Of a stretch of DNA of 25,261 nt, positions 2,642 through 13,398 are shown piece after piece. The position numbers and the translations under genes were made by a program. Below the pieces are notes generated by a model. It had not been told where the DNA came from. It worked only from the letters and a program-made list of their open reading frames with translations, and ran no database searches. Source of the DNA: a virus; the IMG/VR virus record IMGVR_UViG_3300017749_000122, positions 1-25,261 of that record, one strand, 5' to 3'. How positions within the stretch are numbered: position 1 is the stretch's first letter; every line of letters begins with the position of its first letter.

Positions 2642-4477
2642 ATGACAAATTTGGCAGCACACGCTGAGAGGATTGCCCGTCACTACTGGGGCGAGCCGAA
2701 CGCGAAGCTATCGCAGAAGGGCAGGACGCTGCGTTGGGGAACCAACGGCAGCAAGGAACTCGATCTGGTCAAGGGCGCGTGGTACGACTTCGAGGCGGAC
2801 GCCGGTGGCGGCGCAGTCGACATCGTCAAGCAATACGGCAAGCTGGGCATATCCGGCTCAGTCGCTGACGTGCTGGAGCGCGACTTCGGCATACAGAAGC
2901 AGGCCCAGAAGGCGCTCGAACCCAAGCAATATATACAACGCATATACAGCTACTTCGACACGGACGGGGCCGAGGCGTATCAGGCGTGCCGCCTGTATCC
3001 GAAGTCCTTCAGGCTGCGTCAGCCGGACGGCAAGGGCGGTTACCTCTACAGCGTCAAGGACATTGAGCCGCTGCCGTATAACCTGCCAGCGATCATGCAG
3101 CACGCAGATCAGCCCGTCTTTATTGTCGAGGGCGAGAAGTGCGCCGACGTACTGATTGAGGCCGGGCTGGTCGCCACCACAAATCACGGCGGGTCCGGCA
3201 AGTGGCTGGACACGCACTCAAAGCACTTGGCTGGACGCAGCGTGATCGTGCTGCCCGACAATGATCAGGCGGGTCGAACCCACGCCGACAAGGTGATCGC
3301 AAGCCTGTGGGGTAAGGCGGATCGCATCAAGCGCATCGACCTGCCGGGGCTCCAAGAGAAGGGCGACGTGGCGGACTTTCTGAGCGAGCGCACTCTGGAT
3401 GAACTGATGGACATAGTGCGGCAAGCGCCAGTGGTTACGGCACAGCCGGAGGCAGGCGATGAGGTGCCAGCGGTGGAGGATGGCGCGGTTGAGCCGTACC
3501 AGACGATGCGCCGGGGCGCGGTGTTCGCGATGCCTCCGGTCGAGTTTCTGGTGGATGGGCTGCTCACCGACACAGGCTTTGCGATGATGTACGGTGCGCC
3601 CGGCACGGGCAAGTCATTCCTCGCCATCGACATAGCGCTGTCGGTCGCGCACGGCATGCCGTGGCAGGGGCAGGAGGTAAAGCCCGGCGCAGTGCTGTAC
3701 ATAGCGGGCGAGGGCATTGGCGGCTTTGGTAAACGCTGGAAGGCGTGGGAAAAGTATCACGGCGTCAAGGATGAGCCGGATATGTACCTGCTGCCAACGG
3801 CTGTGAATTTTCGTGAACCCGAAGATATCGCGCGCCTCGTCGCTACGATTGAGGGCATCGGGCAGAAGTTCTCGCTCGTGATCGTCGACACAGTGGCGCG
3901 CGCCATTGCGGGTGCTGAGGAGAACAGCAGCACCGATATGGGGCTGTTCGTCGCCGCGTGTGACGAAATAAAGGCGCTGACGGGCGGGGCGCTGCTGGCG
4001 GTGCATCACGCGGGCAAGTCGGCTGAACGTGGAGCGCGCGGATCGTCGGCGCTTCTGGGGGCGGTTGACACGTCACTGATGGTCGGCAAGAGCGATGACA
4101 TTGTGGTGCTGCGTACCGAGAAGATGAAGGATGCAGAGCCGATGGACGAGATCAATCTGATCATGCAGACAGTGCCTGCGTCGATCTCCGAGACATCCGT
4201 CGTGCTGGAGCGCACAGAAGAGCCAGCGCCTCGGCGGCAGAAAGCGGCAGGGTGGAGGGACAACCCGCAGGCTTATCACGCATTCCAAGCGCTGCAAAAC
4301 CTGCTCATTGATAAGGGCGTGACGCGCATTCATGTGACCGAATGGCACGAGGCTCACACGCAAAAAGAACCCGATTTGAGCAAGCAACAGAGGCAAAGAG
4401 CGCGTCAAATGCTGCTCGACGCAGGTCCCGTGGTGTGTGACAAGAAGATTGTGTGGATTAACAAAGAGTTAACTTAA
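2642..4477 (+). CDS. Primase-helicase (Toprim plus RepA/RecA-type ATPase)
   Basis: A 611-residue replication protein starting at ATG 2642, which has GGGAG 7 nt upstream; the reading frame stays open further upstream but only across the preceding gene and hairpin. Residues 1-100 include a DnaG/bifunctional-primase-like N-terminal segment (WYDFEADAGGGAVDIV). A Toprim domain follows with E163-G-E-K and D206-N-D208, the metal-binding acidic residues of primases. The C-terminal half is a hexameric RepA/AAA_25-type helicase: Walker A GAPGTGKS (318-325), the AGEG strand, Walker B LVIVD (D416), and an HH motif (AVHHAGK). A predicted helical tail ends the protein. It should unwind DNA and lay primers at the phage fork. 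No DNA polymerase gene is present nearby, so polymerase is either elsewhere or host-provided. Confidence 0.88.
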   Translation: MTNLAAHAERIARHYWGEPNAKLSQKGRTLRWGTNGSKELDLVKGAWYDFEADAGGGAVDIVKQYGKLGISGSVADVLERDFGIQKQAQKALEPKQYIQRIYSYFDTDGAEAYQACRLYPKSFRLRQPDGKGGYLYSVKDIEPLPYNLPAIMQHADQPVFIVEGEKCADVLIEAGLVATTNHGGSGKWLDTHSKHLAGRSVIVLPDNDQAGRTHADKVIASLWGKADRIKRIDLPGLQEKGDVADFLSERTLDELMDIVRQAPVVTAQPEAGDEVPAVEDGAVEPYQTMRRGAVFAMPPVEFLVDGLLTDTGFAMMYGAPGTGKSFLAIDIALSVAHGMPWQGQEVKPGAVLYIAGEGIGGFGKRWKAWEKYHGVKDEPDMYLLPTAVNFREPEDIARLVATIEGIGQKFSLVIVDTVARAIAGAEENSSTDMGLFVAACDEIKALTGGALLAVHHAGKSAERGARGSSALLGAVDTSLMVGKSDDIVVLRTEKMKDAEPMDEINLIMQTVPASISETSVVLERTEEPAPRRQKAAGWRDNPQAYHAFQALQNLLIDKGVTRIHVTEWHEAHTQKEPDLSKQQRQRARQMLLDAGPVVCDKKIVWINKELT

Positions 4478-4593
4478 CTGGTCACAAGGTCCGGGGACCG
4501 GTCACACGGTCTGGGGACTGGTCCGTCCGTCCCCACACCCTTAGGGGTGGGGACCGGGACCGTGACCGTGACCGGACCAGAAGGGAGATAAAG
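4478..4593. repeat. Structured hexamer-repeat intergenic region
   Basis: The 116-bp gap after the primase-helicase holds two near-identical 20-bp direct repeats (4480-4499 and 4500-4519, 17 of 20 identical), each beginning GGTCAC. Opposite them is a run of G(G/T)GACC hexamers (4550-4555, 4556-4561, 4562-4567, 4568-4573) followed by GGACC (4574-4578). The outer ends CTGGTC (4478-4483) and GACCAG (4575-4580) pair perfectly, and the centre CCCC-AC-ACCC-TTAG-GGGT-GGGG (4531-4552) folds into a hairpin. The whole can form one long imperfect cruciform or RNA stem. AAGGGAG at 4581-4587 then serves the next gene. Iteron-like origin, protein-binding array or transcription attenuator are the options; the sequence alone does not decide. 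Confidence 0.6.
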
Positions 4594-5193
4594 ATGGCTA
4601 CAAGAAAGAGAGTACCTAAGAGCAAGACGTCACGGGAGTGGCGGTTCTATCCGAGCGAGCGAGACGCTGATAAGTGTCAGGCTGCGCTTGCGACGTATGA
4701 TGCGGCGGTGAGGGCGCGCGAGGTGCATTGGGGCATCGACCGACTGCCGTTGCTGGTTGAGGCGGAATTGCGGGATCGGTTCTGGGCGCAGATGGATGTG
4801 CTTAACCGCGCGATTGAAAAGGGCAGCGGCGTCGAGGTTGAGGATGCGGTCGCCAGCACGATACGCGGCGTCGAGGCTCTGGAGCGTCGGGCGGTAGAGT
4901 TGGGGGCCGAACCCGTCAGCGGTGAGGTGTGGGAGGAGACGACGCCGAAGGGTGCTGTCATTGCGGTGTGCCGAGACAAGGCGGAGATTGCGAAGATCAG
5001 GGACAGCGGCAGGGTCGACCGGGTCTATGCGATGAGCGAGGTTGCGGCCATCGTCGAGGCGTTTGAGGACGGCAAGGCGGGTGAGGTGACGAAAAAGGTG
5101 AAGTCGCTGTTCGAGGGTGCTACAATCGAGAGCATCAAACCAAAGACGCCAGCGCAGGTTGTGGCGTCGTTAGATGATGAGATACCCTTTTAG
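4594..5193 (+). CDS. Unknown replication-block protein with SSB-type C-terminal tip DDEIPF
   Basis: A 199-residue mainly helical protein with a basic N-terminus (MATRKRVPKSKTSREWRFYP). Residues about 20-105 look like long helices with a heptad-like pattern (RDRFWAQMDVLNRAIEKG; DAVASTIRGVEALERRAVEL). A small alpha/beta segment follows (GAVIAVCRDKAEIAKIRDSGRVDRVYAMSE), then a lysine-rich linker. The final six residues DDEIPF closely match the acidic tip of bacterial single-strand binding protein (DDDIPF in E. coli), which recruits PriA, RecQ, RecO, exonuclease I and others. I recognise no enzyme domain. Placed directly after the primase-helicase and the repeat region, it may bind DNA or recruit host SSB partners; that is inference. 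Confidence 0.7.
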   Translation: MATRKRVPKSKTSREWRFYPSERDADKCQAALATYDAAVRAREVHWGIDRLPLLVEAELRDRFWAQMDVLNRAIEKGSGVEVEDAVASTIRGVEALERRAVELGAEPVSGEVWEETTPKGAVIAVCRDKAEIAKIRDSGRVDRVYAMSEVAAIVEAFEDGKAGEVTKKVKSLFEGATIESIKPKTPAQVVASLDDEIPF

Positions 5194-5436: not shown

Positions 5437-5764
5437 GGGCGACGGACTATTTGCGAAGTGGCTGGCACAGGGCTGCTGCCCGAAGTGCCAGTCGGATACG
5501 TTGGTTAAACACGCAGGCGGCTCGCAGTGCAGGTGCTGCGGCCTTGTGATAGGGAGAAGTGAGGATGGACAAGTTAGACGCGCTGGACGCAGCCATACAC
5601 GCCGTGGAGGCTCGTGGCGAGAATTATGGAAGCGTGCGGGAGAACCACGAGCGGATAGCGGCGCTGTGGTCGGTTGTGTTCGATCAGCGGGTTACGCCGG
5701 AGCAGGTTGTGCTTGCAATGACGTGCCTGAAGGTAGCACGGCTGATGGAGACGCCTTCGCATGA
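5426..5764 (+). CDS. Zinc-ribbon protein with long out-of-frame overlap
   Basis: From ATG 5426 the first 45 residues form a compact zinc ribbon: C18-P-K-C21 and C35-R-C-C38, with another Cys at 17. Beyond residue about 46 the frame stays open for 66 more codons, but those lie over the DUF6378-like gene at 5565-5828 in another frame and read as low-complexity Arg/Gly/Ala-rich sequence. The zinc-binding part is believable; the extended C-terminus is suspect and may be read only because GC-rich DNA has few stops. A frameshift joining the two genes is another possibility. The product probably binds nucleic acid or protein. Confidence 0.5.
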   Translation: MLDKGDGLFAKWLAQGCCPKCQSDTLVKHAGGSQCRCCGLVIGRSEDGQVRRAGRSHTRRGGSWRELWKRAGEPRADSGAVVGCVRSAGYAGAGCACNDVPEGSTADGDAFA

Positions 5765-5828
5765 AGATAGCTGGGTCGACATATGCGGCTACGGCGCATG
5801 CGGAGCGGAGATAGCAACAGATGGCTGA
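5565..5828 (+). CDS. DUF6378-like small phage protein
   Basis: An 87-residue protein. ATG 5565 is favoured over the in-frame GTG 5559 because AGGGAG (5551-5556) is 8 nt from the ATG but only 2 nt from the GTG. Conserved-looking motifs include ARGENYGSVRENHERIAALW, LKVARLMETPSHEDSWVDI and GYGACGAEI. This ENH...KVAR...DSWVDIxGY pattern is what I recall for DUF6378, a helical phage family sometimes compared with nucleotide pyrophosphohydrolases of the MazG/dUTPase kind. Enzymatic activity is not established. Its stop overlaps the next start at 5821. Confidence 0.65.
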   Translation: MDKLDALDAAIHAVEARGENYGSVRENHERIAALWSVVFDQRVTPEQVVLAMTCLKVARLMETPSHEDSWVDICGYGACGAEIATDG

Positions 5829-11356: not shown

Positions 11357-13398
11357 TGTCAGAGATGGACGACGTACAGCTTGGGTCGATTGTCAGCGGC
11401 GAGATCACCGACGCGCTGAACCACTTCGACAGCGAGTACACGCAGGACCGCCTCCGGGCGCTCGACTTTTATCTGGGCGAGCCGCTCGGCAACGAGGTTG
11501 AGGGTCGGTCGTCCGTCATTGCCACCGAGGTCGCAGACACGGTTGAGGCGATTATGCCGAACCTGATGCGCGTGTTTACGGCGAACGATAAGTATGTGCG
11601 GTTCGCCGGACGCACGGGCGAGGATATGGAAGCCGCCGAGCAGGCGTCAGATTATGTCAATTATCTAATCCAGAACCAGAACGACGGATACAAGCTGCTG
11701 CACACATTCTTCAAGGATGCGCTGCTATTCCGTATGGGCGTCATTAAATACTTCTACGAGGAAGTCGAGGAAGTAGACGAGGAAGAATATAACGGCCTGT
11801 CCGAGCCGGAGATGGTGCTGCTGCTGAACGACCCGTCGATTGAGATCGTGGAGCAGCGCGAGACCGTCACGCAGTCGATGATGGACGAGGACGGGGTCGA
11901 GGTTCCGCTCGACGTGATGTACGACCTGTCGGTCCGGGTGAAGCGCAAGTCGGGCCAGATCAAGGCAATCAACGTGCCGCCCGAAGAGTTTCTTGTGTCG
12001 CGTCACGCGACCGGCAACCTTGAGGACGCGCACTTCGTGGCGCACCGCACGTCGCTCACTGTGAGCGAACTTGTGGCGATGGGCTACGACCGCGACATCA
12101 TCGAGCAGTACGCCGGCGAAAACGAACTGGACACTGACCGCGAAGTCAACAACCGCTTCCAAGACTTAGAGGCGGCGACGGGGGTTGACCCCGCCGATCC
12201 AACCCTGCGCTCTGTGATTTATCACGAGTGCATAATGAACATTGACTTCGACGGCGACGGCATTGCCGAGCGTCGGCGCATCTGCGCGATTGGCTCTGAC
12301 GGCGCGTACATCCTGCACAATGAGCCGTGGGATCACATGCCGTTCGCGGTCTGCTCGCCGATCCTGATGCCGCACCGTCTGGTGGGTCGCTCGGTCTACG
12401 ACTTGACCGAGGACTTGCAGGTGATCAAGACGACGCTGATGCGCCAGTACCTCGACAGCGTGTACAGCAGCACGCTGCCGCGCATGATCGCGGTCGAGGG
12501 ACAGGTCAATCTGGACGACTTGCTTGACGGCTCCGCAGGCGGTGTGATCCGCGCGCGCCAGCCCGGTATGGTTCAGCAGATCACCGGCGCGTCGGTTGGC
12601 GGCGAGATACGCCCGCTGATGGATTATCTCGACAGCGTGAAAGAGCAGCGCACCGGCATGTCCAAGGCGTCGCAGGGACTGTCACCCGACGCGCTGCAAT
12701 CTTCGACCGCTGGCGCAGTCGCGGCGACTGTTCGCGGCGCTCAGGTGAAGCTGGAGAGTTACGCCCGCACAATGGCTGAGACCGGCGTGAAAGACTTGTT
12801 CAAGGGCATCCTGCACTTGGTGCTGAAGCACGACAACAAGCCGAGGGTCTTCCGCCTGCGTAATAACTTTGTGCCGATTAACCCGGCGGAGTGGAAGTCG
12901 CAGTTCGACACGGTCGTGCAGGTCGGGCTTGGCACCACAGACGACGAGACCAAGATTGCGTTCCTGACGCAGATCGCGGCCAAGCAGGAGCAAATCCTGA
13001 TGCAGCTTGGCCCGCAGAACCCGATTGTGTCGATGCCTCAGTACGTCAACACGCTGCGTTCGATTGCCGAGATCGGCGGGTTCAAGGATGCGGATCAGTT
13101 CTTTAACTCACCGCAGATGATCCAGCAGCAGATGATGATGCAGCAGCAACAGCAGCAGGCACCGCAGCCTGACCCTGAGATGGTCAAGATGCAGCAGGAA
13201 ATCGAGATGGATCGCGCCAAGGCGCAGGCCGACATGCAGCTTGAGCGCGAGAAGATGCAGGCGGACATCCAGCTACAGCGCGAGAAGATGACGATGGAGA
13301 TGGAACTGCGTCGCCAAGAACTACAGGCAGAGGCCGAACTTCGCGTCGCGAAGGCCGTCACCGATGCCGATATTTCAACTAACTTGCCGAGGGTTTAG
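11356..13398 (+). CDS. Portal protein (P22/SU10-like)
   Basis: A 680-residue portal, the dodecameric ring at the capsid vertex through which DNA enters and leaves and to which terminase and tail dock. The N-terminal LDFYLGEPLGNEVEGRSSVI and DTVEAIMPNLMRVF, the mid-region VPPEEFLVSRHA, the wing SPILMPHRLVGRSVYDLTEDLQVIKTTLMRQYLDSV, and GMSKASQGLSPDALQSSTAG are typical of P22/SU10-type portals. A Met/Gln-rich stretch (residues about 588-606) leads to a long charged helix (EIEMDRAKAQADMQLEREKM) that would form the internal barrel, as in P22. Length fits the family. It is followed by a 2-nt gap to the next gene. Confidence 0.92.
   Translation: MSEMDDVQLGSIVSGEITDALNHFDSEYTQDRLRALDFYLGEPLGNEVEGRSSVIATEVADTVEAIMPNLMRVFTANDKYVRFAGRTGEDMEAAEQASDYVNYLIQNQNDGYKLLHTFFKDALLFRMGVIKYFYEEVEEVDEEEYNGLSEPEMVLLLNDPSIEIVEQRETVTQSMMDEDGVEVPLDVMYDLSVRVKRKSGQIKAINVPPEEFLVSRHATGNLEDAHFVAHRTSLTVSELVAMGYDRDIIEQYAGENELDTDREVNNRFQDLEAATGVDPADPTLRSVIYHECIMNIDFDGDGIAERRRICAIGSDGAYILHNEPWDHMPFAVCSPILMPHRLVGRSVYDLTEDLQVIKTTLMRQYLDSVYSSTLPRMIAVEGQVNLDDLLDGSAGGVIRARQPGMVQQITGASVGGEIRPLMDYLDSVKEQRTGMSKASQGLSPDALQSSTAGAVAATVRGAQVKLESYARTMAETGVKDLFKGILHLVLKHDNKPRVFRLRNNFVPINPAEWKSQFDTVVQVGLGTTDDETKIAFLTQIAAKQEQILMQLGPQNPIVSMPQYVNTLRSIAEIGGFKDADQFFNSPQMIQQQMMMQQQQQQAPQPDPEMVKMQQEIEMDRAKAQADMQLEREKMQADIQLQREKMTMEMELRRQELQAEAELRVAKAVTDADISTNLPRV

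Follow-up and report, generated by a model that had tools for sequence, protein, structure and literature searches.

The intergenic gap of 116 bases (positions 4478-4593) directly following a primase-helicase gene in the window, i.e., the whole stretch of 25,261 nucleotides analyzed here (IMG/VR record IMGVR_UViG_3300017749_000122), is very probably a phage replication origin, the iterons of which would be bound by a winged helix predicted at the C-terminus of the upstream primase-helicase and which, together with this domain, constitutes an exchangeable specificity cassette. The proposed origin proper (4478-4581; like the elements within it, not assigned to a strand) consists of a central GC hairpin with one iteron set on either side. 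The evidence computed for it comprises the repeats themselves, a constant plan common to relatives, co-variation with the C-terminus of the primase-helicase, joint exchange of both, and the occurrence of arrays after related genes.

As noticed in the original prediction, two adjacent 20-bp direct repeats are present (4477-4496 and 4497-4516; 85% identical at a spacing of 20), each of which contains one GGTCAC, at 4480 and 4500. The left iteron set (4480-4524) carries GGTC at 4480, 4488, 4500, 4508 and 4520 and GACC at 4496, and its GGTC copies alternate between spacings of 8 and 12 bp with a period of 20 bp. The right set (4551-4580) is inverted with respect to the left one and has GACC at 4552, 4558, 4564, 4570 and 4575, spaced by 6, 6, 6 and 5 bp; the array of G(G/T)GACC hexamers described before was thus recovered, with the first four GACC in a 6-bp register and a closing GGACC (with its GACC at 4575). 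The predicted outer arms, CTGGTC (4478-4483) and GACCAG (4575-4580), do pair perfectly, and the predicted central GC hairpin was found at 4529-4554, where 8-bp arms, GTCCCCAC and GTGGGGAC, surround the core CCCTTAGGG (4538-4546) with one unpaired A on the left, in the order GTCCCCAC-A-CCC-TTA-GGG-GTGGGGAC.

The earlier view that such regularity lies far beyond chance was borne out. In total, the gap contains five GGTC and six GACC, i.e., 11 words within 104 bp, whereas no other piece of this length in the window has more than 5 (mean 0.98), and it ranks top in the whole 25-kb window with respect to repeated 6-mers. The second most repetitive place of the window is located within the portal gene (13061-13225), where the repeated 6-mers encode a Gln/Met-rich stretch. 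Comparison of the predicted fold with shuffled sequences, as had been suggested, yielded z-scores of -2.9 for RNA and -3.4 for DNA, and none of 200 shuffles folded equally well. The suggested analysis of GC skew gave no support for an origin, as no inversion occurred at the gap in the window or in three relatives of 35-37 kb; in a phage whose skew may follow transcription, this speaks neither for nor against an origin.

The primase-helicase gene upstream of the gap extends from about 2642 to 4477 on the plus strand. The open reading frame at 1927, which had been taken for the preceding protein, turned out to be a separate gene (212 aa, ending at 2565); just upstream, at 1035-1900, two different PDDEXK nuclease families, PDDEXK_15 and PDDEXK_14, adjoin each other. 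The primase-helicase comprises a TOPRIM-like N-terminal half, a RecA-like helicase of the AAA_25 (RepA) type and a winged-helix-like C-terminal domain. It matched AAA_25 in Pfam (4.8e-39) and DNA polymerase/primase among the PHROGs, while the Pfam match to Toprim_2 was weak and below threshold. The best fold match of the model of the whole protein was the T7 gp4 primase-helicase, and the helicase part matched RSF1010 RepA. For residues 541-606 (4262-4459, plus strand), the proposed iteron reader, which segregates with the class of the gap, the AlphaFold2 model displayed a helix-helix-helix-beta-beta arrangement at a pLDDT of about 90. This layout is that of a predicted winged helix; searches of Pfam and PDB gave no sequence match to a winged helix in this domain.

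To identify relatives, viral contigs were searched with the primase-helicase and with the protein encoded downstream of the gap (starting at 4594; the 4594 protein), and many loci were found to carry both genes. All relatives that share these flanking genes have a repeat-rich gap right after the gene for the primase-helicase, and in nearly all cases it measures 101-136 nt. The exceptions are L117-L119, with a gap of 252 nt in which the last ~120 nt form the repeat region, and L120 (4099-4636), in which the primase-helicase frame is seemingly interrupted before the C-terminal part, which may reflect a sequencing error or decay, and the iteron array and the core are intact. The repeat words fall into at least eight vocabularies that differ entirely between lineages, for example GGTCAC/GGACC (window), ATCACAC (L011), CGGAG with TCGTAG (L025), CTGCGC (L019), ACGTAG/ACGAAG (L020), ATCCGA (L009), CCGTATC (L117) and CGCACG (L094). 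The plan, in contrast, is constant, with a left word set, a CCCT-(1-3 A/T)-GG core within a flanking stem, and a right word set; the core is invariant across all classes and the flanking words vary. Among 17 representatives, all possess the core hairpin, with an asymmetric stem of 6-12 bp whose left side bears 1-3 additional bases, and all exceed the shuffle mean in repeated 6-mers. Fold stability of the class F gap was unremarkable (z -1.4). Between L041 and L017, CGGAG is changed to CGTAG at three direct copies and the inverted copy, CTCCGAC, is unchanged; such a concerted, uncompensated change is what would be expected of protein-binding words evolving in concert, and not of base pairs evolving by compensation.

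Phage C72C1 (OQ984150.1, L127) is the closest in structural genes (74% for TerL and 68% for the portal shared with the window). It was rejected for comparison, its replication region being annotated differently and this primase-helicase not being listed; the annotated replication initiation protein, DNA methyltransferase and Sak-like annealing protein point to an exchange of the whole module.

Word content of the gaps was compared with protein distances across 31 loci, and the correlation was r 0.81 for the ~80 C-terminal residues of the primase-helicase. It decreased to 0.59 for the helicase core and to 0.28 for the N-terminal half of the enzyme and likewise for the downstream protein. The partial r for the C-terminus given the other three distances was 0.75, with a Mantel permutation p of 0.0005 in which phylogenetic dependence is still included. 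C-terminal distances below 0.1 were always accompanied by gap distances of at most 0.05, and those above 0.5 by gap distances of at least 0.73. As the C-terminus adjoins the gap, linkage contributes to this correlation. However, the gene to the right is equally adjacent and does not co-vary, and we regard this asymmetry as the main argument that the coupling is not explained by linkage alone.

DNA identity profiles between relatives delimited an exchange cassette of C-terminal domain plus origin at 4227-4580 (no strand assigned). Between the window and L025, L028 or L034, the flanks are mostly 85-99% identical, whereas identity is 44-59% in the C-terminal domain and the gap is unrelated; the drop to 44-59% against L006 is likewise confined to this cassette. 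Conversely, L025 and L007 are 91-100% identical in domain and gap within surroundings of mostly 56-90%. A larger cassette including the helicase is swapped between L006 and L013, and identity returns to at least 93% right after the gap. The 3' boundary of the gap is where the swaps stop; it thus marks the right edge of the cassette and leaves the next gene outside. Hence, the C-terminal domain and the matching gap are exchanged as one cassette between related marine phages. The 4594 protein is 97-99% identical among phages with unrelated gaps, which disfavors the earlier suggestion that the following protein binds this DNA. Unrelated gaps between the same flanking genes had been proposed to speak against a function, and such gaps do occur; yet the cognate protein domain is replaced along with them, and this is an argument for a function.

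We infer that the gap is contacted directly, that the helicase is loaded there and that the core is the place of opening or priming, as follows. The iterons on both sides of the CCCTTAGGG hairpin would be recognized in double-stranded form by the winged helix at the C-terminus of the primase-helicase, and docking there would load one or more helicase rings, on either side. Opening or extrusion of the core hairpin would follow, and the TOPRIM half of the enzyme, the primase, would produce the first primer at the core. Iterons and winged helix would accordingly form the specificity cassette that is swapped as one unit, the core being common to all cassettes.

The helicase of the phage P4 alpha protein belongs to SF3, in contrast to the RecA-like AAA_25 helicase with a T7 gp4/RSF1010 RepA fold present here. 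Like the enzyme encoded here, alpha is a fused primase-helicase, the winged helix of which binds origin repeats (PMC4234260), and a C-terminal winged helix is predicted for the phage enzyme studied here as well. The interpretation as an origin follows the precedent of origins directly 3' of the initiator gene: in phage-inducible islands, the origin is located immediately 3' of the initiator gene and has an AT-rich stretch between two sets of iterons (PMC6092414), and the C-terminal domain of SaPI Rep recognizes the iterons (PMC7581432). Like the pri-rep-ori systems of SaPI and E. coli PICIs, the window has noncoding repeats directly behind the initiator/primase gene and a core with iterons on both sides; a C-terminal domain as iteron reader is here proposed from co-variation and joint exchange. 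The window differs by the GC hairpin CCCTTAGGG (CCCTWWGGG) in place of an AT-rich core, by the TOPRIM primase with a RecA-like (RSF1010 RepA-type) helicase, and by the phage setting. In the PLE satellites of Vibrio cholerae, the DNA-binding domain of RepA and the iterons also co-vary and are swapped as a module, and only cognate pairs replicate (PMC8263062). The PLE initiator, however, is of the RepA_N type without primase or helicase, its noncoding origin is separate, and the exchanged domain is N-terminal. RSF1010, with RepA, RepB' and RepC, combines iterons with ssi hairpin priming sites (PMC4234260) and has a related helicase fold, but employs three separate proteins, of which RepC and not the helicase binds the iterons. 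Compared to known origins of this organization, the one proposed here differs in its T7 gp4/RSF1010 RepA-like enzyme, in having a GC hairpin as core and in its occurrence in a phage. No description of the core hairpin was found in the literature, most subscription journals being outside the search, so that this is no proof of novelty; a search with four spellings of the core string gave, among the matches listed, none on replication origins.

Arrays also occur at more distant loci. In the Rhizobium phages RHph_Y3_1, 16-3 and RHph_N65, 9-13 repeat copies lie within 300-380 nt directly 3' of the related gene, with TGGGAACG, GCGTGACA or GCGGAGAT as the word, one per phage, and a CCCT...AGGG hairpin in two of them. 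Microcystis phage Mae-JY30 and ctyzp037 encode a related primase and showed no clear array in the stretch inspected. Among 60 bacterial loci with a related helicase, the 450 nt after the helicase gene exceeded every background piece of the same locus in repeated 7-mers in 31 cases, roughly half thus not being outstanding, and a CCCT...AGGG-type core was present within this distance in 20 compared to 3.4 expected (binomial p 4e-11), although some of these loci are interrelated and the counts not fully independent. The arrangement of iteron, core and inverted iteron recurs as GCCGGAAACC-CCCCTTTAGGGG-TTCCGGCG in L201, CGTAACACAA-CCCTAAGGGG-TGTTACGG in L182 and ATTCCAATGT-CCCTGTAGGG-ACATTGGAAT in L159. 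Generally, the distant homologues have mainly direct-repeat arrays, and in most of these loci the downstream gene differs while array and core remain 3' of the helicase gene. It is about an even chance that all this represents a widespread, undescribed replicon type of phages and integrated elements, characterized by TOPRIM/RepA-type primase-helicases, a 3' origin with a universal CCCT-N-AGGG opening/priming hairpin, lineage-specific iterons, and a winged-helix/iteron lock-and-key cassette. Cassette exchange in such replicons possibly serves the escape from origin-targeting competitors.

Other functions of the gap have to be weighed against this. For ORF904 of pRN1 and for Bordetella phage BIP-1, a ~100-nt stem-loop of variable sequence and conserved structure lies directly 3' of the gene for a primase-helicase with a C-terminal winged helix, and pRN1 requires it for replication (PMC4234260). 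As a sequence-variable, structure-conserved stem-loop is located 3' of the gene here too, and the core hairpin is kept while the sequence varies, the structure and not the repeat sequence might be what is recognized. We consider this unlikely, as the words here recur within the gap and track the C-terminus, whereas the pRN1/BIP-1 systems, which have an archaeal-eukaryotic primase and an SF3 helicase, lack iterons, and no specific binding has been detected there. Co-variation with the C-terminus would look identical if the gap were an operator at which this domain controls downstream transcription or translation and not the start of replication, and the gap does directly precede the ribosome-binding sequence of the 4594 gene (AAGGGAGA, within the leader at 4581-4593, plus strand). 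The chance of this appears small: the promoter scan gave none overlapping the gap, array and core keep their place behind the helicase gene in distant loci mostly with another downstream gene, and iteron origins 3' of the gene are an established feature of initiator helicases.

A structured mRNA leader or switch, e.g., for autoregulation by the SSB-like 4594 protein, as partly envisaged in the original prediction, is very improbable. The predicted fold is strong (RNA z -2.9), stems occur in all classes, and the gap is positioned in front of 4594, but the leader changes wholly while the 4594 protein is constant. In addition, direct repeats change in concert without compensation, class F folds at a z of only -1.4, the distant members are mainly direct-repeat arrays, and the Rfam search of the gap identified no family, the sole match being mir-1296 with 19.3 bits against a cut-off of 100. 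That the gap serves for packaging, for termination or as a recombination hotspot and takes no part in initiation has a nearly negligible probability: the terminator scan of the gap gave no match and no T-run, co-variation is with a helicase domain, and other elements likewise carry arrays behind related helicase genes, which outweighs the GC-rich hairpin and the frequent exchange at the gap. Among the initial interpretations, the mRNA switch and binding by the following protein are thus disfavored, and an iteron-like origin to which the preceding protein would bind is retained as a candidate with strong comparative support, its words tracking the C-terminal domain and both being exchanged jointly.

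In uncultured phages with this enzyme, the origin would be locatable from sequence, directly 3' of the primase-helicase gene. About ten natural pairs of protein domain and DNA word would provide material for a recognition code of winged helices. As near-identical marine phages appear to swap origin specificity in the form of a small cassette, origin compatibility, competition or escape at the origin become directly testable.

The 4594 protein (4594-5193, plus strand) is a conserved protein of 199 aa with an SSB-like acidic tail, DDEIPF, on which tail the SSB idea is based. No Pfam, PHROG or convincing PDB match (none with E below 0.001) was obtained, and the AlphaFold model is mostly helical at a pLDDT of 69. 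Homologues follow related helicase genes in some bacterial contigs (L139:5863-6516, L143:2970-3593, L142:2477-3358 and L200:1025-1711), and the protein may be a partner or loader of the helicase. Further downstream, an 89-aa DUF6378 protein (5559-5828) matches PHROGs named phosphofructokinase, a name that is probably wrong as the domain is too short.
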